DNA of 64,000 nt from Solirubrobacteraceae bacterium. Its GTDB lineage: Bacteria; Actinomycetota; Thermoleophilia; Solirubrobacterales; Solirubrobacteraceae. This document shows, piece after piece, positions 29,141 through 60,843 of this stretch. The stretch's first letter is position 1. Every line of letters starts with the position of its first letter. Under the pieces are notes generated by a model, which did not search any database, was not told the DNA's origin, and saw only the letters and a list, made by a program, of their open reading frames with translations. The stretch is from assembly GCA_030447275.1 (NCBI GenBank), contig JAUJPF010000020.1:1-64000 (forward strand), given 5' to 3'. The position numbers and the translations under genes are program-made.

Positions 29141-30109
29141 ATGCTCTTGGAGATGACCCGAGCCGCCCATGTCCCCGTCCTGCTCGACGAGGTCGTCGAC
29201 GTGCTCGATCCGCAACCGGGCGAGACCGCCGTCGACTGCACCTTCGGCGGGGGCGGGCACGCGCGCGCGGTGGCCAACCGCCTCGGCCCGACCGGCCTGC
29301 TCATCGCGATCGACCGCGACCCGATCGCGGAGGAGCGCTTCGCGGACCTCGCCGCCGACGTCGCGTGCCAGACCCGCTTCATCCGCGCGTCGTTCGCCGA
29401 GGGCCTCGAGGTCCTCGCGCAGGAGGAGTCGCGCGCGGATCTCGTCTACGTGGACCTCGGGATGTCGTCGATGCAGCTCGACACGCTCGAGCGCGGCTTC
29501 TCCTACGTCTACGACGCGCCGCTCGACATGCGGATGGACCCCACGCAGGGCCTGACCGCGCGCGACGTCGTCAACGAGTGGGAGGAGCGCGCGCTCATCA
29601 CCGCGCTCAAGGAGCTGGGCGAGGAGCGCTACGCACGCCAGATCGCCCGCGCCATCGTGCGCCGCCGGCGCAAGAAGCCGCTCGAGACGACGCAGGAGCT
29701 CGTCGACGTCGTGTCATCGGCGATCCCTACCCCGGCGCGCTTCGGTGGCGGCCATCCCGCCAAGCGGACGTTCCAAGCCGTCCGGATCGTCGTGAACGAT
29801 GAGCTCGGCCAGCTCGATCGCGCTTTGCCTCTTGCCTGGGACATCCTCCGCCCTGGTGGCCGTTTTGCAGGAATCTCATTCCATTCACTGGAAGACCGGC
29901 GCGTGAAGCGGTTCCTCGCCGACCGTGCCCGCGGGTGCGTCTGCCCGCCGGAGCTTCCGGTCTGCGTCTGCGGCCACGAGCCCGAGGCCGACCTGCTCAC
30001 GCGCGGAGGGATCGTCCCCGCCGCCGACGAGGTCGCTGCCAACCCCCGCTCGAAGTCGGCCCGCCTGCGCGCCGCACGGAAGCTGTCCGACCTGGAGGTC
30101 CACCCCTAG
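29141..30109 (+). CDS. rsmH: 16S rRNA (cytosine-1402-N4)-methyltransferase RsmH
   Basis: RsmH (MraW) methylates C1402 in the decoding centre. Motifs: HVPVLLDEVVDVL (10-22), the SAM site VDCTFGGGGHARAV, YVDLGMSSMQLDTLERGFSY, and SFHSLEDRRVKRFL near the C-terminus followed by a Cys-rich zinc-like stretch CVCPPELPVCVCG. ATG 29141 is used; ATG 29153 (MTRAAHVPV) is possible and nearer the usual length. It ends one base into the ftsL start. Confidence 0.95.
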   Translation: MLLEMTRAAHVPVLLDEVVDVLDPQPGETAVDCTFGGGGHARAVANRLGPTGLLIAIDRDPIAEERFADLAADVACQTRFIRASFAEGLEVLAQEESRADLVYVDLGMSSMQLDTLERGFSYVYDAPLDMRMDPTQGLTARDVVNEWEERALITALKELGEERYARQIARAIVRRRRKKPLETTQELVDVVSSAIPTPARFGGGHPAKRTFQAVRIVVNDELGQLDRALPLAWDILRPGGRFAGISFHSLEDRRVKRFLADRARGCVCPPELPVCVCGHEPEADLLTRGGIVPAADEVAANPRSKSARLRAARKLSDLEVHP

Positions 30110-30888
30110 TGGCCGCTCAGCCCGCACCCGCAACCGCACCGCGCCCGCGCACGCCCACGCGGCCGCGTCTGCGCCCCGCCCCGCCGCCGCGGCGGTGAGC
30201 GGCCCGGCCCGCGCTCGCACCGCCGCGCGCCCGGCCGCCGGCGCCGCCGCGCTTCCGGGCCTCGGGCTCCAGCGGGTCCTCGACGCGCTGCGCACCCTCC
30301 CGACGCGCGCTGGCTCGACCGCCTGCTGCGCGGCCAGGGCTGGATCATCCTGATCGGCGGCGCGCTGATGGGCATCGTCGCCATGCAGGTGACGCTGCTC
30401 GAGATGAACTCGGGGATCGGCCAGTCGATCGAGCGCGCCGGCACGCTCGAGCGCCAGAACGCGGAGCTGCGCGCCGACGTGTCGAAGCTCTCGATGGAGG
30501 AGCGCATCGCCTCGGTGGCCGGCGAGCACGGCCTCGTCATGCCCAACAGCCGGCGACGTGCGCTACGTCACGGTCCGCGGCGAGCGCGACGCGCGCAAGG
30601 CCGCCGCCGTCATGCGCGCGCCCCCGTCGACGACCTCGCCATCGGCGGCTGGCCGCCACGGCCACGGCCGATCCGGCCACCGGCGCCACCACCGCTCCCG
30701 TCGATCCCTCCACCGGGACGGCGACGACCGCTCCCCCGGCGACCGCCACCGCACCGCCCGCCGACGGCACGACCGGCGCCACCGCGCCCGCCACGGGCAC
30801 GACCGCGGCGGCCGGCGCCGCCAGGGCCACCGCGGCGCCCACCACCGCCACGCCGACAGCGGCGCCGGGGCGGGGTAAGTGGCGCTGA
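30109..30888 (+). CDS. ftsL: FtsL-like septum protein with Thr/Ala-rich tail, several frameshifts
   Basis: The gene is followed across frames from GTG 30109. A Pro/Arg/Ala-rich cytoplasmic start is followed by RWLDRLLRGQ, one membrane helix (GWIILIGGALMGIVAMQVTL) and a coiled coil (ERAGTLERQNAELRADVSKL). Then come GLVMPNAGDVRYVTVRG and a long Ala/Thr/Pro tail ending near 30888. Frame changes lie near 30185, 30300, 30550 and 30620. The position between rsmH and ftsI, one helix and a coiled coil are the signature of FtsL. The extracytoplasmic low-complexity tail of about 75 residues is unusual. Confidence 0.7.
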
Positions 30889-32542
30889 TCCAGGAGCGGA
30901 TCGGCCTTCTCTTCGCCGCGTTCCTGCTGCTCCTGCTGTTCGCGGGGCTGCGGGCGATGTACCTGGGGACGATCAAGGCGGGCTCGCTGCGCAACGCGGC
31001 GGTCACCCAGCAGGACCAGCGCGTCACCGTGCCCGCGCGGCGCGGCGAGATCTTCGACCGCCGCGGCACGGAGCTGGCCGTCACCGAGCCGGCGGAGGAC
31101 GTGTCGGCCACGCCGTACCTCGTCAAGGATCCGGGCGGCGTGGCCAAGAAGATCGCGCCGCTGCTGCGCAAGCCCGAGGCCGCGGTCCTCAAGTCGCTGA
31201 CCCGTCGCGACACCGGCTTCGTCTACCTCGCGCGCGGCCTGCCGAGCACGCAGGCGCGCAAGGTCCACAAGCTCGGCATCGCCGGGCTCGCCTTCGAGCC
31301 GGCGAACCGGCGCGTCTACCCGCGCGAGTGGCTGGCGTCGCAGGTGATCGGCACCGTCGGCACCGACGGCAAGGGGCTCTCCGGGCTCGAGTACGCCTAC
31401 GACAAGCGCCTGCACGGCGTCGACGGCAAGCGCCACATCATCCGCGACGCGCTGGGCAAGCCGATCAGCGTCCGCGACCCGGTGCCCGCCCGCCCCGGCT
31501 CGCGCATCGAGCTGGCGATCGACGCGACGATCCAGGACAAGACCGAGGAGGTCCTCGCCGAGCTCGGCCAGAAGTTCCGCCCCAAGGGCGCGACGGCGGT
31601 CGTCATGGACCCGCGCAACGGCGAGGTCGTCGCTCTCGCCAACTGGCCGCGCGTCGACGCCAACGACGTCGGCGGCGCGCCGGACTACGCGCCAGAACCG
31701 CGCCGTCGGCTTCAACTACGAGCCGGGCTCCACCTTCAAGGCGTTCACCGTCGCCGGCGCGCTCGAGGACCGGAAGGTCACGCCGGACACGATGTTCGGC
31801 CTGCCGCCGCAGATCCAGGTCGCCGACCGGACGATCGGCGAGTCGCATCCGCGCGGCTACGTCTCGCTCTCGACGGCCGACATCCTCGCCCAGTCGAGCA
31901 ACGTCGGCGCGATCCTGATCGGCAAGGACGAGCTCGGCGCCAAGCGCTTCGACCACTGGGTGCGCCGGTTCGGGTTCGGGCGCAAGACCGGCGTCGACCT
32001 GCCGGGCGAGGAGACGGGCCAGGTGCTGCGCGCTCGGCAAGTACTCCGGCTCGTCGATGGGCAACCTGCCGATCGGCCAGGGCGTCAGCGTCACGCCGAT
32101 GCAGATGGCGAGCGCGTACGCGGCGATCGCCAACGGCGGCGTCCTGCGCCCGGCACGGATCGTACGCACCGTCGACGGCCGCCGGCCGCCGCTCGCGCGC
32201 GGCAAGCGCGTGATCTCCTCGAAGACCGCGCTCGCGCTGCGGATCATGCTCAAGGGCGTGCTCGCGCCGGGCGGCACCGCGAGCGAGGCGGCGGTCGAGG
32301 GCTACGAGCTGGCGGGCAAGACCGGCACCGCGAACAAGGTCGACGAGACGAGCGGCGAGTACTCCGAGAGCCGCTACGTCGCGTCCTTCGTCGGCTTCGC
32401 CCCCGCCGAGAACCCGCGGCTGCTCGTCTCGGTCATGGTCGACGAGCCCAACGGCGCGATCTACGGCGGCGAGGTCGCGGCCCCCGCGTTCCAGTCGATC
32501 ATGCAGTTCGCCCTGCCGTATCTCCGCATCCCGCCGGAGTAG
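30879..32542 (+). CDS. ftsI: peptidoglycan transpeptidase FtsI (PBP3), two frameshifts
   Basis: Class B penicillin-binding protein for septal cross-linking. One N-terminal helix (about 8-27), the PBP dimer domain (RRGEIFDRRGTELAV, then VYPREWLASQVIGTVG) and the transpeptidase domain with SxxK in EPGSTFKAF, SxN in SSNVGAI and KTG in AGKTGTANK are all present. Frame changes near 31690 and 32030 must be bridged; all catalytic motifs then fall in order over ~555 residues. The gene is essential in known bacteria, so the breaks are probably errors in the sequence. Confidence 0.88.
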
Positions 32543-47981: not shown

Positions 47982-49345
47982 GCCGCTACACCGCCGTCAC
48001 CCCCGAAGACCTGCGCGAGATGCTCGCGACGATCGGCGTGGGCTCGATCGACGAGCTCTTCGACCGCCAGGTGCCCGCCGGCGTGCGCCTCGACCGCGCG
48101 CTGGACCTCCCCGAGGGGCTGCCCGAGCAGGCCGTCTACGAGCACCTGCGCGACCTGGCGGCGAAGAACACCTCGACCGAGGACGAGATCACGTTTCTCG
48201 GCGCCGGCATGTACGACACGTACGTCCCGGCGATCGTCGACATGCTCCAGGAGCGCTCGGAGTTTCTGACGCCCTACACCCCGTACCAGCCGGAGATCTC
48301 GCAGGGCGGGCTCCAGGTCATGTTCGAGTACCAGACGGCGATCAGCGAGCTGACGGCGCTGCCCGTCTCCAACGCGTCGGTGTACGACGGCCCTAGCGCG
48401 CTCGCCGCCGCCGGCTACCTGGCCAAGCTCGCCAACGGCAAGAAGCGGTTCGTGATCAGCGCCGGCGTGCACCCGCACAGCCTCGAGACGCTGCGCACGA
48501 AGGCCCACGGCTACGAGATGGAGGTCGTCGAGGTCCCGCTGCGCGACGGCGTCACCGACCCGGAAGCGTGGGCGGCGGCGATCGACATGGACACCGCTGC
48601 GGTGTTCGTCCAGCAGCCGAACTTCCTCGGGGCGGTCGAGGACGTCGAAGCGCTCGCGGCCGCTGCCAAGGCGTCGCCCGCCGTGGTCGTCGCCGCGGTC
48701 GACCCGCTGACGCTCGGGATCCTCAAGCCGCCCGGCGAGTGCGGCGTCGACGTCGCGGTCGGCGAGGGCCAGCAGCTCGGAAACAAGCCCGACTTCGGCG
48801 GGCCGTCCTTCGGGTTCTTCGCGGCGACCGAGGCCTACCTGCGCCGGATGCCCGGCCGCATCGCCGGCGAGACCCGCGACGTCGACGGCAACCGCGGCTT
48901 CGTCCTCACGCTCCAGACCCGCGAGCAGCACAGCCGCCGCGAGCGGGCGACGTCGAACATCTGCACCTCGCAGGCGCTCAACGCGCTCGCCGGCGTCGTC
49001 TACCTCAGCTGGCTCGGGCGGCGCGGGATCGTCGAGCTGGGCGAGCAACTGCTCCAGCGCACGGCGTACGCGCGCGACCGGCTCGCCGCCCTCGACGGCG
49101 TCGAGCTGCTGCACGAGCAGCCGGTGGTCCGCGAGTTCGCCGTCCGGTTGGCCGCGCCGGTGGCCACGGTCATCGAGCGCTGCCAGGACAAGGGCGTCAA
49201 CCCCGGCTTCGCGCTGGAGGGCGACGGGCTGCTCGTCGCGCTGACCGAGCGCCGCTCGCGTGCGGACATCGACCGCCTGGCGGACGTGCTCGGCGCCGCG
49301 GTCGCCGCGGAGCGCTCGGCCGCCGCGGTCGAGGTGGGCGCGTGA
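47978..49345 (+). CDS. gcvPA: glycine dehydrogenase (decarboxylating) subunit 1
   Basis: The N-terminal half-subunit of the split, two-chain P protein, which decarboxylates glycine on pyridoxal phosphate. The 455-aa chain begins with TPEDLREMLATIGVGSIDEL (8-27) and has FLGAGMYDTYVPAIVDML (near 68) and YTPYQPEISQGGLQVMFEYQ (near 97), all typical of GcvPA. It lacks the PLP lysine, which belongs to gcvPB, as expected. It overlaps gcvPB by GTGA. Confidence 0.95.
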   Translation: MSRYTAVTPEDLREMLATIGVGSIDELFDRQVPAGVRLDRALDLPEGLPEQAVYEHLRDLAAKNTSTEDEITFLGAGMYDTYVPAIVDMLQERSEFLTPYTPYQPEISQGGLQVMFEYQTAISELTALPVSNASVYDGPSALAAAGYLAKLANGKKRFVISAGVHPHSLETLRTKAHGYEMEVVEVPLRDGVTDPEAWAAAIDMDTAAVFVQQPNFLGAVEDVEALAAAAKASPAVVVAAVDPLTLGILKPPGECGVDVAVGEGQQLGNKPDFGGPSFGFFAATEAYLRRMPGRIAGETRDVDGNRGFVLTLQTREQHSRRERATSNICTSQALNALAGVVYLSWLGRRGIVELGEQLLQRTAYARDRLAALDGVELLHEQPVVREFAVRLAAPVATVIERCQDKGVNPGFALEGDGLLVALTERRSRADIDRLADVLGAAVAAERSAAAVEVGA

Positions 49346-50820
49346 GCGACACCGTCACGATCTTCGAGAAGGGCCGGGAGGGCCGCCGCGCGTTCGTCGC
49401 GCCCAAGCTCGACGTCCCCGAGCGGCCCAAGGACGAGCTGCTGCCCGCGCGCTTCCGGCGCGCCGAGGCGCCGCGGCTGCCGGAGATGCTCGAGCCCGAG
49501 ATCGTCCGCCACTACGTGAACCTGTCGAAGCGCAACTTCGACCTCGACTCGGGCTTCTATCCGCTCGGCTCGTGCACGATGAAGCACAACCCGCGCCTGC
49601 ACGAGCGCGTGGCTGGGCTGCCCGGCTTCGGGCGGCTGCACCCGCTCCAGGACCCGCGGCGCGCCAGGGTGCGCTCGAGCTGATGTGGAATCTCGAGCGA
49701 GCGCTCTCGGAGGTTTCCGGCCTGCCCCACGTCTCGCTCCAGCCGAGCGCCGGCTCCACGGCGAGCTGGCCGGCGTGCTGCTCGCGCGCCTATCACGAGG
49801 ACCGCGGGCAGACGCGCCGCAAGGTCCTGACGCCCGACACCGCCCACGGCACGAACCCTGCGACGGTCACGATGGCCGGCCTGGAGGTCGTGAAGGTCGG
49901 GACGAACGCCGATGGCGGCGTCGACCTCGACGACCTGCGTGCGAAGGTCGACGACGACGTCGCGCTGCTCATGCTCACGAACCCGAACACGCTCGGACTC
50001 TTCGACCCGAACATCGAGGAGATCGCGAAGATCGTCCACGACGTCGGGGCGATCCTCTACTACGACGGCGCGAACCTGAACGCGGTGATGGGGCGGACGC
50101 GGCCCGGCGACATGGGCTTCGACATCGTCCACTTCAACCTGCACAAGACGTTCACGCAGCCGCACGGCGGCGGCGCCTGGGGAGCAGGCCGATCGCGGTG
50201 CTCAGACCGGATCCAGCCGTACCTCATGGTGCCGCGGATCGTGCGCTCGGCCGGCGACGGGAACGGGACGGCGCCGTCGTTCGCGCTGTCGAGCGACGCG
50301 CCGAAGGCGATCGGCCGCCTGCGCGGGTTCCAGGAACTTCGGCACGTTCGTGCGCTCGTACGCCTACATCCGCTCGCTCGGGGCCGAGGGGCTCAAGGAC
50401 GCGTCGGAGACCGCGGTGCTCAACGCGAACTACCTGCTGGCGCGGCTGCGCGAGGAGTGCGGGGACCTGCTGCCGGTGGCCTTCGGGGAGAGGGGCTGCC
50501 TGCACGAGTTCTGCCTGTCCGGCGCGCCGATGAAGCGCGAGCTCCAGATCAAGACGCTCGACCTCGCCAAGCGCCTGCTCGACCACGGCTTCCACCCGCC
50601 GACCGTCTACTTCCCGCTGCTCGTCGAGGAGGCGCTGCTCGTCGAGCCGACCGAGACGGAGACGAAGGAGACGCTCGACGCCTTCGCCGAGGCCGTCGGC
50701 GCGATCCTGCGCGAGGCGCGTGAGGACCCGGAGGTCGCGCGCAACGCGCCGTACGACACGCCGGTCCGGCGCCTCGACGAGGCGGGCGCGGCCAAGCGGC
50801 CTGTCATCCGCCAGCAGTGA
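49342..50820 (+). CDS. gcvPB: glycine dehydrogenase (decarboxylating) subunit 2, at least five frameshifts
   Basis: The C-terminal, PLP-binding half-subunit. Reading across frames gives YPLGSCTMKHNPRLHE, GALELMWNLERAL, SLQPSAGS, RAYHEDRGQ, DTAHGTNPATVTMAGLE, LTNPNTLGLFD and FNLHKTFTQPHGGG, where the PLP-binding lysine is in HKTF. Then come FVRSYAYIRSLGAEGLK, LNANYLLARLREE and the end at 50820. Frame changes fall near 49665, 49755, 49790, 50180-50200 and 50325. The sequence on both sides of each is well conserved and each is explained by one missing base in a GC run. The upstream operon genes are intact, so consensus errors are more likely than decay. Confidence 0.85.
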
Positions 50821-54328: not shown

Positions 54329-54381
54329 GAGCCGACCAGTGTAAACGCTTTAAAGCAGAGTAATGAAGCCCAGTTCGTGGT

Positions 54382-55630
54382 CTACTGGGGAACCTCGAAC
54401 TCGACCATCACGCCGTCGAGGATCGGGAGCGGCGCGACGTCGGTCGCGTACCCGAAGCGCGCGACGAGCCCGTTGAGCGCGGCCTGCGTCCACGTCGACG
54501 GCGTCAGCGGCTTGGCGGCGTCGCGGCTGAGCGTGTTGTTGGCCGTGAACGAGCCGCTCTTGACGATGCTCTCGGTCGTGCCGTCGAAGATCGAGAGCTT
54601 CGCGGCGTTGGCCTGGCTCGCCGTCGAGTGGATCGTGATGTAGCCGTGCGCCGAGCGGATGCACGTCTCCGTCGTGTTGGCCAGCGTCATCTCGGCGTAG
54701 CTGCTGGCCTTGGCGGTGACCTGCTGGATGAAGTCGGTCGTCGTGTTCAGCGGGATCTCGTCGAGGCGCTGCCACGACATCGCGTCGATCGCGGTGCCGT
54801 CGTTGTCCTGGAAGCTCGCGGCGCCCACGTGGGTGCCCATCCCGTTCGAGGCTCAGCGACCGGACGCGCCCGTCGCCGAGCGGGTACTGGGTCCCGTTGC
54901 TGCTTGTCAGGATGTCGTCGTAGTGGGCCGTGAACGTGTCGGTGACCCGGGTCCCGAAGTAGGTCTGGGAGATCGTGGTGGCGGTGCCGGCGACGGTCGC
55001 ACCGGGCTGGTTGGCCTCGTCGATCTGCCAGGCGGCGGCGTGCGTGGCGGTCCCGACGGCATAGCGGATCTCCACGACCTGCCAGGGCCAAGCGGTCACG
55101 GTCGCGTCCGCCGTCGCCACGACAGGGGTGCCGCCCGTCGCTCCCGTGATCGCCACGGCGAGCTTCTGCGACGCGGCCACGTAGCGGAGATGGAGGCTCG
55201 CCCCGCCGCGGCGGACAGCGAGGAGCTGCTGCACGTTCGCCGCCGGCAGGCTGTTCAGCCGCAGCGCGAAGCGCACGACCTGCGTCGGCTGCGCGGGAGT
55301 GACGAACAGGTACGCGTGGCCGGCCGCGGCCGCGGCCGCCACCTTCAGCGAGTAGCCGCCCGTCCGTGCGACGGTGCCGTCGACCGACGCGCCGGTCCCC
55401 GCCGCGAAGAGACTGTCCGAGCTGTAGGGCAGCCGGCCGTACTCGAGGCCGGTCGTGTAGCCGCCGGTCACCGTCTGGTTCGGGCAGGTGAAGAACGACG
55501 CTTTCGTCGCGAACGTGCTCGCGGAGTTCGCCGTGGTGCTGGAGAACGCCGAGATCGTGTGGCCGACCAGCGCCGCCGCGCAGCAGGCGGCGACGGCGGC
55601 GATCGCGATCTTCAGCGCGGCGGCCTGCAT
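54382..55630 (-). CDS. secreted protein, paralogue A of a divergent pair, with TasA-type N-terminus; one frameshift
   Basis: ATG 55630 gives ~415 aa. The N-terminal helix (IAIAAVAACCAAALVGHT) is followed by SAFSSTTANSASTFATKASF, which resembles the SAFSATTSNAGNEF start of the TasA-like protein nearby and so may be a SipW-type substrate. The body is a beta-sandwich-like (LamG-type) domain: AYLFVTPAQPTQVVRFALRL, AVAITGATGGTP and TFTAHYDDILTSS. The frame changes near 54845 and the second domain (LDEIPLNTTTDFIQQ, NGLVARFGYATD, PLPILDGVMVEFEV) ends at 54382. It is homologous over its whole length to the gene at 55761. Role unknown; a cell-surface component is likely. Confidence 0.75.
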
Positions 55631-55760
55631 CTCATGCGTAGTCGGAGGGCGTCCAGCGATGCACAGGAACCTGGACAGATGTTCGATCGGACCCGCGCCA
55701 CCTCGCCGCCGATACGCACGGAAGTCCAACGGGCACGGATGCCCCAGCGAAGGAGGAGTC

Positions 55761-56933
55761 GTGTCCCGGAGGATCGCTGCCATTGGTGGAGTGCTCGTCG
55801 CGCTCGCCGCACCGAGTGCCGCTGCTGCGGCGTGTCCCACAACCCCGCTGGCGCCTGCCGCGCTGACCGGCTTCGAGCACGGTCGCGCCGGCTACAGCGC
55901 CACCAACCTCATTCCGAGCGGCACCGGGGCATCGGTCACACCCGCCGCGGCGCGCAACGGCGCGTACGGGCTGCGCGTGAACGCGACCGGCGCCGCCGGC
56001 AACGAGTGGTTCATGTGGCCCACCGCCCCCCGGGCCGGCGTCGCGCGGTTCGCGATGAAGCTCGACGCCGCTCCCGCCGCCGACGTGGCCGAGCTGTTCC
56101 GGATGGACACGTACTCCAAGTCGGCCGTGCGCATCGGCTTCGACTCGTCCTCGCAGTCGCTGCGCCTGACGCTCAACTCGGCCGCGGGCGGCAGCGCCGC
56201 CGTGACCGGGCCGGCGCTGGCCACGGGTGCCTGGCACATCGTCGACGTCCGCTACGACGTGGGCGCCGGGCACTCCGCCGACTGGTCGGTGGACGGCGTC
56301 GCGCAGCCCTCGGCCGCCGTGGCCGGCGGGCTTGAGTCGCTGCACTACGCGCGCTTCGGCACGATCACGTCCGACACGTTCACCGCGCACTACGACGACG
56401 TGCTCCTGTCGCACGCAGCGGCCGACTACCCGGTCGGCGACGGCCGCGTCGGGGTCCTGCGCCCGAACGGCTCGACCGCGTCGAGCAGCGCGCTGCGCGA
56501 CGACGACGGATCGACGGTGGACGCCGGCTCGTGGGCGCGGCTCGACGAGATCCCGGCCACGTCGACGGTCGACTTCCTCCAGCAGACCGCGGCGTCCGCC
56601 TCGAGCTACGCGCAGATCGCGTTCGAGGACACCGCGGAGCCGTGCGCGCGGGCGGTGCGCGGCTACTTCACCACGCACTCCCAGGCCACGAACAACGCCA
56701 ACAACGCGAAGCTCAGCGTGTTCGACGGCGCGCGCGAGTCGGTGATCAGGTCCGGCGACTGGGCCGCGAACAACGCCTACAGCCGCGACTACAGCGCGAC
56801 GGTCGCGCCGCAGGCGGAGTGGAGCCAGCCGGCGCTCAACGGACTCGTCGCGCGGTTCGGCTACTCGACCGACGTCAAGCCGCTGCCGATCCTCGACGGC
56901 GTGCTGATCGAGTACGAGGTCGCCCAGCCCTAG
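55761..56933 (+). CDS. secreted protein, paralogue B of the divergent pair
   Basis: AAGGAGGAG at 55750-55758 sets GTG 55761 (390 aa). The signal peptide is an ordinary Sec type (RRIAAIGGVLVALAAPSAAA, then AACP). The body matches paralogue A: VARFAMKLDAAPAADV, TFTAHYDDVLLSH, YPVGDGRV, LDEIPATSTVDFLQQ, ASSYAQIAF, NAKLSVFDGARES, NGLVARFGYSTD and PLPILDGVLIEYEV. It is intact, so it also serves to confirm the frame break in A. The 130-bp gap between the two starts must hold both promoters. No enzyme motif is seen. Confidence 0.8.
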   Translation: MSRRIAAIGGVLVALAAPSAAAAACPTTPLAPAALTGFEHGRAGYSATNLIPSGTGASVTPAAARNGAYGLRVNATGAAGNEWFMWPTAPRAGVARFAMKLDAAPAADVAELFRMDTYSKSAVRIGFDSSSQSLRLTLNSAAGGSAAVTGPALATGAWHIVDVRYDVGAGHSADWSVDGVAQPSAAVAGGLESLHYARFGTITSDTFTAHYDDVLLSHAAADYPVGDGRVGVLRPNGSTASSSALRDDDGSTVDAGSWARLDEIPATSTVDFLQQTAASASSYAQIAFEDTAEPCARAVRGYFTTHSQATNNANNAKLSVFDGARESVIRSGDWAANNAYSRDYSATVAPQAEWSQPALNGLVARFGYSTDVKPLPILDGVLIEYEVAQP

Positions 56934-56999: not shown

Positions 57000-57655
57000 C
57001 TAGGCGTCCTGCGCCTCCCAGGTGAACGTCTGGGTGTGGGTCTTGTTGGCCGCGCTCTGGTCGTTCGCGACGGTGACGTCGAACCGGTAGACGTGCGCCT
57101 CGGGGTTCGTCCACGGCTCGGCGTGCCGCCCGGGGCGTCGGAGATGCCGCCGGTCCACGTCGTCGGGTACTGGTCCATCCGGGCGTTGAACAGGACGCCG
57201 TTCGCGCCCGCGCCGTTGCCGCCGCCGTACGTCGCGCCGTCGGCGACGAAGCTCGAGCCCGCCCTGTCGGTGCACGCCATGTTCGTAGGCATGCGGCGCC
57301 CGAGAACGTGCCGCGGGTCACCTTGAGGTCGAGGTACTGGTTGAGGCCGCTGCCGGCCGTCGCCGCGCCGTAGAGGCGCACGTTCGAGGTCAGCGTGCCG
57401 GTGTAGCTCACCGTGATGCACTTCGAGACGGTATCGCCGGGGCCGGCGCCGGTCATGCTGAACATCGCGGTGCCGCTGTCGTTGTCGCTCAGCGCGACCG
57501 AGCCGGTCTGGAACTCGTTGCCGGCGTTGCTCGTCGTCGCGCTGAAGGCCGACCACGTGGCCAGGCCGGCGATCGACGCGATCACGCCGATCAGGAACAC
57601 GATCAGCGCGGACTTGGTCTTGCGGTCGAGCGGGGCTCGCTGGGGGAGTGGCCAT
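57000..57655 (-). CDS. TasA/camelysin-like surface fibre protein, about three frameshifts
   Basis: GGAGAAGGA precedes ATG 57655. After a frame change near 57640 comes LDRKTKSALIVFLIGVIASI, a membrane-like signal, and the typical SAFSATTSNAGNEFQTGSV-type junction followed by ALSDNDSGTAMFSMTGAGPG. The mature domain (CITVSYTGTLTSNVRLYGAA) continues after breaks near 57295 and 57130 with MPTNMACTDRAGSSFVADGA, ARMDQYPTTWTGGISDAPGG and VYRFDVTVANDQSAANKTHT to the end at 57000. About 215 aa. In Bacillus such proteins form matrix fibres and are cut by the dedicated peptidase SipW; a SipW-like gene is divergent 122 bp away. Confidence 0.75.
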
Positions 57656-57684
57656 GGCGTCCTTCTCCGCGTAGGCGGGGAACT

Positions 57685-57706
57685 GCCCCACGTCGTTCGG
57701 TGGGGC
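57685..57706. promoter_or_regulatory. inverted repeat in the tasA-like/sipW-like divergent region
   Basis: GCCCCAC (57685-57691) pairs perfectly with GTGGGGC (57700-57706) across eight bases. It would lie in the leader of the TasA-like gene, 30 bp before its start. It may be an operator shared by the two divergent transcripts or an RNA hairpin. It does not match the c-di-GMP riboswitch core. Confidence 0.45.
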
Positions 57707-57777
57707 TTGCATGCTTTGGTCGGCGGAAATCGTGTGAGCTTGAGAATTCCGCTGAGCGGTCGATTACGGGGCCGATC

Positions 57778-58271
57778 GTGCGACCCGTCCCCACGCACCT
57801 CGCCCACGCCGGGCTCACGGCGCTGTGCGCATTCGTCCTGCTCGTGCTGGGCGGCGTCGCGCTGGCCAAGCCGCTCGGCTACCGCGTCCTCGTCGACCAC
57901 AGCGACTCGATGGCCCTGCCATTCGCGGCATGACGTCCTCGTCAGCGAGGTCGTACCGCCGCGCAAGGCGAAGGTCGGCGACGTCGTGAGCTTCCACAGC
58001 CCGGACGCGGGCCGGCTCGTGACGCACCGCGTCGTCTCGCGGCGCCTCGAGCGGGGCGGGCGCTGGGCGTTCGTCACGCGCGGCGACGCGAACACCGGCG
58101 TCGAGCGCTGGGGGTCGCGACGGACGGGCGGGTCGGGCGCGTCGCGAAGCGGCTGCCGAAGGCCGGGTACGCGATCGGGTGGCTCGGGCAGCCGATCGGG
58201 CGGTTCCTCCTGGTGGCGGTCGGCGGGATCGCGCTCGCGGCCTGCTCGCGCGCAGGATCTGGAGCCTGTGA
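57778..58271 (+). CDS. SipW-like (ER-type, Ser/His) signal peptidase I, about three frameshifts
   Basis: From GTG 57778 an N-terminal helix (LTALCAFVLLVLGGVALA) is followed by YRVLVDHSDSM, with the catalytic Ser in SDSM. After a frame change near 57915 it continues HDVLVSEVVPPRKAKVGDVV, SFHSPDAGRLVTHRVVSRR and AFVTRGDANTGVERWG. The His in THRVV replaces the Lys of usual bacterial enzymes and is diagnostic of the S26B/SipW group. Breaks near 58110 and 58235 lead to KRLPKAGYAIGWLGQPIG and a final helix ending ARRIWSL at 58271. About 165 aa. It presumably cleaves the TasA-type substrates on both sides. The stop overlaps the next start (TGATG). Confidence 0.78.
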
Positions 58272-59287
58272 TGCGGCGCCGCCTCCTCCAGGCGCTCCCG
58301 GTCGTCGTCGTGGTCGTCGCCGTCCCGCTCGGCCTGGCCGTCGCCCGCGACGGCGACGCCCCGGTCCGCGCCGCCGCCAGCAAGCGCGGCCGGCGTGATG
58401 GACGACGACGGGGGCACGCCGATGTTCGCGCTGACGGCGCTCGCGCCGGGGCGGTCGACGTCGCGTTGCATCCGCCTCCGCTACGCCGGCGACGGTGACG
58501 GCAGCGTCCGTCTCGACGGACGGATCCGGGGCACGACGCTCGCCTTCCGGATCGCGCTGGTCGTCGAGCGGGGAGCGGGGGATCCTTCGAGCACTGCCGC
58601 GGGTTCCGCGGCGAGCGGGTGTTCGCCGGGACGCTCGCTGAGTTCGCCGCGGCGGACGGACGTGCGTGGCGGGCCGCCGACGGCGACGCCGCCACCTACC
58701 GCTTCACCGCCACCGCGGCATCGGACCTCCCCGAGCGCGACGACCACGCGGCGGCGACGTTCACGTGGCATGCGACGGCGGTCCCTGCCGCATGGTCCCG
58801 GTGGTCCCGGCGGCCCGGGCGGCCCGGCGGCCCGGGCGGCGGCCCGCCGGCTCCCGCGGGCGTGCCCGGCGGGCGGCCGGGGCCGGTCGCGCCGGGAACG
58901 CCTGGTGCGGGCGGCGGTACGCGCGGTCCCGACGCCCGCGGCGGCCGCGCTGCTCGCGGCGGCGACCGCGGGCGCGGCGGCGTCTCGGGCGGCGGAGCCG
59001 GCGATCGCGGCGGGCTCGGTGGCTCTGGCGCCGGCGGCGCCGGCGGCCCCGGGGCGCCCGCCGATGCACCCGGCGGGCTCCGGCGCGCGTTCGACGCGCT
59101 CGCCGCGGCGGCCGTCGACGTCGGCGAGCGCGCGGCGTTCCCGCTCGTGCTGCTGCTCGTCATCGGGATCTTTCTGGCGGCGCAGCACCGCATCGACCAG
59201 CGCGATCCGAAGCTCGCGCTCGCGCCCGTGCACGCGGAGACCGACCTCCCCTTCACCCCGCTGCGCCTCGGAGGGCCGGGCGAATGA
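58271..59287 (+). CDS. second TasA-like protein with Gly/Pro-rich stalk and C-terminal membrane anchor; frameshifts
   Basis: ATG 58271 begins a signal segment (RRRLLQALPVVVVVVAVPLG). After a break near 58390 comes the TasA-like core (DDDGGTPMFALTALAPGRST, SRCIRLRYAGDGDGSVRLDG). After a break near 58575 come GSFEHCRGFRGERVFAGTL and DAATYRFTATAASDLPERDD with AAATFTWHA, matching the TasA-like protein's closing TQTFTWEA. A ~100-residue Gly/Pro/Ala-rich stretch follows (about 190-280), then one helix (AFPLVLLLVIGIFLAAQH) and a short cytoplasmic tail. This looks like an anchor or cap for a fibre. It is coupled to sipW upstream and to the diguanylate cyclase downstream (ATGA). Confidence 0.7.
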
Positions 59288-60843
59288 GGGTCCGGACCGC
59301 CGACGCGACCCACGAGCTCGTCCCGCTCGCCGACCGCATGCGCTACATGCGGATCTTCCGCCTGCTCGCGGCGCTCGCGGTCGTCGGCGCCTGCGTCGCG
59401 CTGCCCGAGCTCCGCCGCGAGCCGCTCGCCGTCGCGCTGGGCGTCACCGGCGGCTACCTCGGGGTGTCGCTCGCCGGCGAGGCGATCTGGCGGATGGTCT
59501 CGCGCCGCGCGCTGCCGCTGTTCGGGGCGCTCGTCGTCCTCGACGCGGTGTACCTCGCGTGGAGCGCGTACCTGCTGGTCGACGCCGACGCTCCTCTGCG
59601 CTTCGTCGTGCTGTTCCACCTCGTCGCGGTCGCGCTGCTCGCGTCGTTCCGAACCGGCCTCAAGCTCGCGCTGTGGCACTCCCTGCTGCTGCTCGCCGTC
59701 TTCCACGCGCAGGAGGCGGGGGTGCTGGAGTCCGCCGGCGGCGGCGAGGCCGTCGCCCTCGGCGGCCTCGAGTACCGCACGCTGCTCGCGCAGGCCGTCG
59801 CGTACTGGCTCGTCGCGATCGCCACCGCGAGCTTCGGCGCGGCCAACGAGCGCGAGCTGCGCCGCCGGCGCTACGACCTCGAAGCCCTTGGCGGACTGGC
59901 CGAGCGGCTCGAGCGCGCGGCCCACGCCGGCGGGGTCGCCGCGACGCTCGCGGACGCCGTGGCCGACGACTTCGGATTCGAGCGGGTCGCCTTCTTCGGG
60001 GCGCCCGAGCGCAAGCTCGAGCTGCTCGCCGGGCGCGGGCTCGTGCCGTTCGCGCTCGACGGCGGCCTGGAGCCGCGGGCCGACGGCGCGCTCGCGCACG
60101 CCGCCGAGAGCGCGCAGCCGCTGCTCGTCGCGGGGTTCGAGCCCGCCGACGAGCCCGCGCTGGCCGCCGCGATGCCCGAGCCGGGCAACCTCGTCTTCGT
60201 CCCGCTGCACGCGGACGGCCGGACGGTCGGCGTCATGGTCTGCGAGCACGCGCTGCGGCGCGGGTCGCGGCTGGAGCGGCGCGTCGTGTCGATGCTCGAG
60301 CGGTACGGCTCGCAGGCGGGGCTCGCCCTGACCAACGCGTGGCTGGTCGACCGCCTGAAGCGCTCGGCGACGACCGACGGCCTGACCGGCGTCGCCAACC
60401 GGCGCGCGTTCGACGAGACGTTCGCACGCGAGCTCGCGCGGGCGGCGCGCGCCGACGACCCGCTGAGCCTCGTCCTCGTCGACCTCGACCGCTTCAAGCT
60501 GCTGAACGACACGCATGGCCACCTCGCGGGCGACGACGTCCTGCGCGCGGTGGCGAGCTGCCTCGAGGACGAGGTCCGCATCGGCGACAGCGTCGCGCGC
60601 TACGGCGGAGAGGAGTTCGCGGTCGTCCTCCCGGGGCTCGACGCCGCCGACGCCCTCGCGGCCGCCGAGCGGCTGCGCACGCGCGTCGCCGCGCTGGAGC
60701 TCGGGGCGGCCGTCACCGTCAGCGCCGGCGTCTCGTCGTTCCCGCTCCACGCGAACGAGCCGCTCGGGCTCATCCGCGCCGCCGACGCCGCGCTCTACGC
60801 GTCCAAGCGCGACGGCCGCGACCGCGTCACGGTCGCGGGCTGA
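59284..60843 (+). CDS. membrane diguanylate cyclase (5-6 TM, GAF, GGDEF)
   Basis: This 519-aa protein has five or six N-terminal helices (about 25-180), a GAF-like domain (about 200-345; VADDFGFERVAFFGAPERKL, then LVFVPLHADGRTVGVMVCEH) and a GGDEF domain starting DGLTGVANRRAFDE. The active site is GGEEF at 441-445, and RIGD five residues before it is a product-inhibition I-site, so it should make c-di-GMP with feedback control. It overlaps the anchor protein gene by ATGA, which ties c-di-GMP production to the surface-fibre operon. No EAL or PilZ gene is nearby. Confidence 0.92.
   Translation: MRVRTADATHELVPLADRMRYMRIFRLLAALAVVGACVALPELRREPLAVALGVTGGYLGVSLAGEAIWRMVSRRALPLFGALVVLDAVYLAWSAYLLVDADAPLRFVVLFHLVAVALLASFRTGLKLALWHSLLLLAVFHAQEAGVLESAGGGEAVALGGLEYRTLLAQAVAYWLVAIATASFGAANERELRRRRYDLEALGGLAERLERAAHAGGVAATLADAVADDFGFERVAFFGAPERKLELLAGRGLVPFALDGGLEPRADGALAHAAESAQPLLVAGFEPADEPALAAAMPEPGNLVFVPLHADGRTVGVMVCEHALRRGSRLERRVVSMLERYGSQAGLALTNAWLVDRLKRSATTDGLTGVANRRAFDETFARELARAARADDPLSLVLVDLDRFKLLNDTHGHLAGDDVLRAVASCLEDEVRIGDSVARYGGEEFAVVLPGLDAADALAAAERLRTRVAALELGAAVTVSAGVSSFPLHANEPLGLIRAADAALYASKRDGRDRVTVAG

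Follow-up and report, generated by a model that had tools for sequence, protein, structure and literature searches.

A surface-protein tail paired with a predicted diguanylate cyclase at a SipW-TasA-like locus of a Solirubrobacteraceae genome

Why do genes for a signal peptidase, two TasA-like proteins and a predicted diguanylate cyclase stand together in an actinobacterial genome, and which of them form the unit that is kept among relatives? The locus in question occupies positions 57000-60843 of the 64,000-nucleotide stretch analysed here (the window; contig C89, GenBank JAUJPF010000020.1, from an actinobacterial assembly of 3.94 Mb in 97 contigs, 78% complete, assigned to the Solirubrobacteraceae) and holds four genes in order: one for a secreted TasA-like protein on the minus strand, then sipW, a gene for an anchored TasA-like protein, and the cyclase gene on the plus strand. 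A preliminary description of this DNA had proposed that fibre export and synthesis of cyclic di-GMP (c-di-GMP) appear hard-wired here in a single transcript. The cluster is indeed conserved, but what is kept alongside the cyclase is the C-terminal transmembrane (TM) segment and tail of the anchored protein, not SipW or the fibre. Judged by comparison of the sequences, the constant unit is the tail with the cyclase and not SipW with TasA.

Relatives were sought with the N-terminal membrane domain of the cyclase alone as query. This domain was matched in 7 of 146 genomes of the family, in which the neighbours of the cyclase are very different proteins that end in the same TM segment and tail. 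Among 399 genomes of the class, the cyclase domain was present in five and the tail in five, with four genomes common to both; the two genomes with one but not the other (G056 and G053) have it at a contig end. With the membrane domain as query, named genomes gave 45 loci, including ones from Solirubrobacteraceae, Acidimicrobiaceae, Geodermatophilus, Blastococcus, Kineococcus, Kineosporia, Cellulomonas, Motilibacter, Nitriliruptoraceae and one Limnocylindrales metagenome-assembled genome. The tail is adjacent to the cyclase in 40 of the 45; at 37 of these it lies immediately upstream in the same orientation and at three (L049, L051 and L068) downstream, such that the pairing is kept where the order is reversed. 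Three of the five loci lacking an adjacent tail (L039, L047 and L070) are at contig ends. Within 14 whole genomes, each of the 16 tails has its own neighbour among the 16 cyclase domains, and no unpaired tail was found. Pairing of the tail with the cyclase is close to strict. The tail itself, which follows the shared C-terminal TM segment, has the consensus FLxxQxRxDRRDPKLALAP...LxF; across 34 tails attached to unrelated ectodomains, Q36 and D43 are invariant and F32, D40, P44, K45, L46, A49 and F59 are nearly so.

What varies is the part of the partner outside the cell. Ectodomains joined to the tail are TasA-like, Big_13 Ig repeats, NHL propellers, fn3 domains or sub-threshold matches to WxLIP (WxL-like), and pairs with Ig-repeat, NHL, fn3 or WxL-like ectodomains occur without SipW. 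Where the ectodomain is TasA-like, SipW is present at 15 of 17 loci, and it was not found at any other tail-cyclase locus tabulated, some of which are short; as a constant partner of the cyclase it was rejected, given that most tail-cyclase pairs are without it. To place the TasA-like label on the cyclase tree takes three changes, and well-supported branches force at least two of them, as expected if ectodomains have been exchanged. The cyclase of the window groups on this tree with that of L039 (support 88/75), where sipW directly follows the cyclase; the contig of this nearest relative also carries a c-di-AMP (cyclic di-AMP) riboswitch (L039:5136-5299, 73.6 bits). Elsewhere the source genome encodes giant surface proteins made of Ig repeats that carry this tail, on contigs C57 (L114:1239-7715) and C63 (L015:1-2994). 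As C57 ends inside an Ig-repeat gene, and C63 starts inside one that is followed by a paralogous cyclase gene, the two contigs may adjoin.

Where the ectodomain is TasA-like, the arrangement seen in the window recurs. Geodermatophilus and Blastococcus have the order secreted TasA-like, sipW, anchored TasA-like, cyclase, and the sipW-anchor-cyclase frames are intact in cultured Geodermatophilus; Kineosporia, Kineococcus and others have the same genes in other orders. Since sipW, the TasA-like anchor and the cyclase recur together in these genera, the gene order is not due to chance. The four genes and their chaining by stop/start overlaps were found as first described, with TGATG at 58270-58274 between sipW and the anchored gene and the four bases ATGA at 59284-59287 between the anchored gene and the cyclase. 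The preliminary description had also named lack of conserved gene order as a result that would speak against it; the order is kept in relatives, and the claim stands on this point. The conserved arrangement extends far beyond Thermoleophilia, the class in which that description had suggested looking for it.

If the tail and the cyclase touch one another, their sequences might be expected to change together. We compared distances in 22 pairs over about 45 tail columns. The tail correlates most strongly with the membrane domain (rho 0.56), and less with the GAF (0.33) and GGDEF (0.23) domains of the same gene; the partial correlation with the membrane domain given GGDEF is 0.53 (permutation p 0.0005), and that with GGDEF given the membrane domain is -0.04. 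The tail thus covaries preferentially with the membrane domain, a pattern that fits physical contact between the two.

The cyclase is a single intact frame of 519 amino acids with the architecture membrane-GAF-GGDEF (PF00990, 143.6 bits; PF01590, 39 bits), and its catalytic motif GGEEF and RxxD I-site are intact; by domain and motif it is a predicted diguanylate cyclase. In a structural model (predicted local distance difference test score, pLDDT, 88), N-terminal membrane helices lead through a long helix (162-211) into the GAF and GGDEF domains. When described membrane sensor domains of cyclases, such as MASE, were considered for the N-terminal ~205 residues, there was no Pfam match outside GAF/GGDEF and no PDB sequence match at E up to 1. 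The peptidase, pieced together across frame changes, scores 56 bits to TIGR02228 (curated cut-off 51.85) and 39.2 bits to the Bacillus SipW equivalog NF046067 (curated cut-off 190). It keeps its Ser (SDSM), His (THR) and Asp (GDAN) motifs, of which the first two lie in different frames, and the sipW genes of relatives have intact frames. In agreement with its first assignment as a Ser/His signal peptidase, its sequence identifies it as SipW-like, of the archaeal/ER (endoplasmic reticulum) type, and not as the Bacillus equivalog.

The two TasA-like proteins differ at their N-termini. The secreted one has a SipW-type N-terminus, AFSATTSNAGNEFQTGSVALSDNDSGTAMF, with a donor-strand-like segment. 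Secreted TasA-like proteins of this genome match the families PF12389 (camelysin/Peptidase_M73) and TIGR04088 (SipW-cognate signal) weakly to clearly, the pieced-together window protein reaching 18.6 bits to PF12389, under the cut-off of 22.5, and a paralogue on contig C87 reaching 24.5 bits; the anchored protein, in contrast, has no Pfam or NCBIfam match and no SipW-cognate N-terminus. A PDB search by sequence returned no relatives of the secreted core. A hidden Markov model (HMM) built from secreted TasA-like proteins only matches the anchored core of the window at 2e-11 and recognises most SipW-type anchored proteins. In the model of the anchored homologue from Geodermatophilus (G. obscurus), a beta-sandwich (51-185) is followed by a disordered Pro-rich stalk, which leads to a TM helix (321-341) and then to an inner helix (343-358). 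Among the chains re-aligned with it, the best match is TasA 5of2 (Z 9.0, root-mean-square deviation 3.2, 123 residues), ahead of TasA 5of1 (Z 8.9) and of 8aur, the TasA fibre (Z 7.8); by this comparison the modelled ectodomain of this one homologue resembles TasA in fold. The alignment begins at TasA residue 42-43, beyond the donor strand, which in TasA fibres comprises residues 28-38 (PMC9674648). A post-signal donor segment (of the kind AFSATTxNxGNxWxxGSV) was seen in each of the 12 secreted TasA-like proteins examined and in 0 of the 16 anchored ones. From their sequences, the anchored members appear to be without the strand needed to polymerise.

We propose that this locus belongs to a module, widespread in actinobacteria, that consists of a surface protein with the shared TM-tail and a dedicated membrane cyclase. 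SipW would mature the secreted TasA-like subunit, which, if it behaves as Bacillus TasA does, would polymerise by donation of its N-terminal strand; the anchored protein, because its TasA-like core has no donor segment, would take its place at the end of the fibre, as acceptor or base. The TM segment and DPKLALAP tail of this anchored protein would contact the membrane domain of the cyclase, and attachment of, or load on, the fibre would alter c-di-GMP output from the outside in. The anchored protein may then be a fibre-associated receptor whose tail controls its own membrane cyclase, a reading that we rate at slightly better than even. The outside-in direction is preferred since a constant tail and enzyme are combined with differing ectodomains, as in receptors that share one signalling output, and a receptor with a dedicated enzyme becomes more likely because the tail-cyclase pair also occurs with other ectodomains and no SipW. 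More tentatively, and with the chances somewhat against so wide a generalisation, there may be an actinobacterial family of adhesion receptors in which diverse surface proteins, the acceptor-only base of a TasA-type fibre included, plug through the TM-tail into a dedicated cyclase, with mechanical or occupancy sensing of the matrix directly from the outside in, and with c-di-GMP acting back on fibre operons through riboswitches.

The suggestion of feedback comes from another contig of the source genome. At about 68.2-70.6 kb of C87 (L001:204-2546), a c-di-GMP-I riboswitch (59.3 bits) precedes a second sipW operon, with the order riboswitch, TasA-like gene, gene without a family match, TasA-like gene, sipW. 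This may be a fibre operon under c-di-GMP control, and it would plausibly link c-di-GMP to fibre production in the source organism; c-di-GMP made by the cyclase may in turn act on it. Among the 146 family genomes, 89 have c-di-GMP-I riboswitches (L084-L111). In the relatives' loci viewed these precede genes for pilins or pilin-like proteins, CAP-domain proteins and other secreted proteins, and never sipW or TasA; a riboswitch-sipW link as a general rule was rejected, and as none of the relatives' loci viewed shows the riboswitch in that position, the C87 case stands alone.

The same pair might work in the opposite direction, with the local c-di-GMP pool of the cyclase regulating display, release or assembly of its partner, and the tail serving as a docking site and not as sensor input. 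The pairing and the conservation of the tail fit this too, and a c-di-GMP output on another sipW/TasA operon exists in the riboswitch of C87. However, no c-di-GMP-binding effector, protease or second domain consistently accompanies the pair in the loci viewed, and the cyclase has membrane and GAF input domains of its own; we consider this inside-out direction unlikely. Alternatively, the two genes may be translationally coupled for dosage, with a tail that serves only to anchor or sort the protein and does not touch the cyclase. The four-base overlap at 59284-59287 is what such coupling would look like, and surface proteins often bear shared C-terminal anchors. A general anchor would be expected also in the absence of this cyclase, yet no tail on its own was found in the 14 whole genomes, the pairing persists at the three loci with reversed order, and the tail covaries with the membrane domain, which together make plain co-expression quite improbable.

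The state of this copy raises a further question. About seven frame changes within 1.6 kb disrupt the first three genes, with about three in the secreted TasA-like gene, others in sipW near 57919-57929 and 58104, and others in the anchored gene near 58386 and 58569-58583; the frame of the cyclase is intact. Coding signal and catalytic motifs continue on both sides of each break. Since ftsI (30109-32542; at 30300, 31687 and 32030) and gcvPB (49342-50820; at 50333) are also broken in the window, and EF-G and uvrA are frame-broken on other contigs of the assembly, the breaks are probably sequence errors, the simplest cause, although their density exceeds the mean over the window (about 0.16 per kb of coding sequence) and true decay of this copy is therefore possible. 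That density is what a decaying remnant would show, with sipW and both TasA-like genes as pseudogenes and only the cyclase still working, but the clustered breaks in ftsI, gcvPB, EF-G and uvrA and the persistence of coding signal and motifs make it the least probable of the readings considered here. As the first three genes are readable only across breaks, our structural claims rest on relatives with intact frames.

Several observations weigh against the view that the anchored protein is a receptor controlling its cyclase. L040 and L054 are true exceptions, with a cyclase and no tail, and the window copies of the secreted TasA-like, sipW and anchored genes are frame-broken. The covariation sample is small (22 pairs), and linkage of adjacent DNA may contribute to it. 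No riboswitch was found in the window or in the 25 tail-cyclase loci tested, and Foldseek alone gave no significant TasA match for the anchored ectodomain of Geodermatophilus. The GAF and membrane domains of the cyclase could also sense something else. Separately, the tail-less cyclase of L054 (4400-10245) lies between tad-pilus-like genes, a context in which the cyclase membrane domain may also serve a pilus.

The features of the locus are collected in the table below. It is adjoined at 54350-56933 by two divergent genes for secreted proteins that resemble each other, of which the plus-strand protein has no Pfam match and the minus-strand copy is frame-broken.

Table. Coordinates, strand and basis of assignment of features at the sipW-anchor-cyclase locus
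Feature	Position	Strand	Basis
Secreted TasA-like protein (camelysin-like), candidate fibre subunit, divergent from the operon	57000..57655	-	N-terminus, PF12389 score
Divergent intergenic region, presumed promoters	57656..57777	.	Inference from position between divergent coding regions
SipW-like (ER/archaeal-type) signal peptidase, GTG start	57778..58272	+	TIGR02228, Ser/His/Asp motifs, intact relatives
Anchored stalk protein: signal, then a TasA-like core that has no donor segment, followed by Gly/Pro stalk, TM segment and predicted cytosolic tail	58271..59287	+	HMM of secreted TasA-like proteins (2e-11), model of a homologue
Conserved C-terminal transmembrane segment FPLVLLLVIGIFLAAQ	59138..59185	+	Tail alignment A6, profile matches
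Conserved cytosolic tail HRIDQRDPKLALAPVHAETDLPF...	59186..59284	+	Residue conservation among 34 tails
Predicted diguanylate cyclase of the pair, with membrane helices and a long signalling helix ahead of its GAF and GGDEF (GGEEF) domains	59284..60843	+	Domain matches, motifs, model, ATGA overlap with the anchored gene

Little is known of how Gram-positive bacteria sense surface attachment and the state of their matrix and link this to c-di-GMP. The module is a concrete candidate for a receptor-enzyme pair in cultured soil actinobacteria, in which the conserved tail predicts the site of contact, and the recurrence of this tail with a dedicated cyclase in many actinobacteria suggests an undescribed way to feel the state of a surface protein. 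It also offers a fibre system of the TasA type in which the anchored member seems to be without the polymerising strand. No description of the SipW-anchor-cyclase cluster or of the tail-cyclase pair was found in the open-access literature, absence from which is weak evidence.

Compared with known systems, the locus shares with tapA-sipW-tasA of Bacillus subtilis a SipW-type peptidase with a secreted TasA-like protein, stop/start overlaps and a donor-strand segment at the mature N-terminus (PMC9674648, PMC10151520). As the preliminary description had noted, its gene content is otherwise different: TapA is absent from the window, where an anchored TasA-like protein without a donor segment and a cyclase dedicated to its tail are found instead, and the tail-cyclase pair also exists without SipW. 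TapA donates an N-terminal strand to the first TasA, and the anchored protein has no such segment. That this is an actinobacterial design is borne out by the conserved cluster in actinobacterial relatives. The sipW-calY1-calY2 genes of Bacillus cereus likewise combine SipW with two TasA-like proteins but, as described, include no anchored stalk protein with a conserved inner tail and no cyclase (PMC10151520). Membrane cyclases controlled by an envelope partner are in themselves already known, as in HmsC/HmsD of Yersinia (PMC8846402). The partners in HmsC/HmsD, and in the Gram-negative system considered next, are periplasmic or outer-membrane proteins. In Pseudomonas, the envelope partner in YfiBNR likewise controls a membrane cyclase. 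Here, in contrast to both, the candidate partner is a single-pass surface protein with a swappable ectodomain and a conserved TM-tail.

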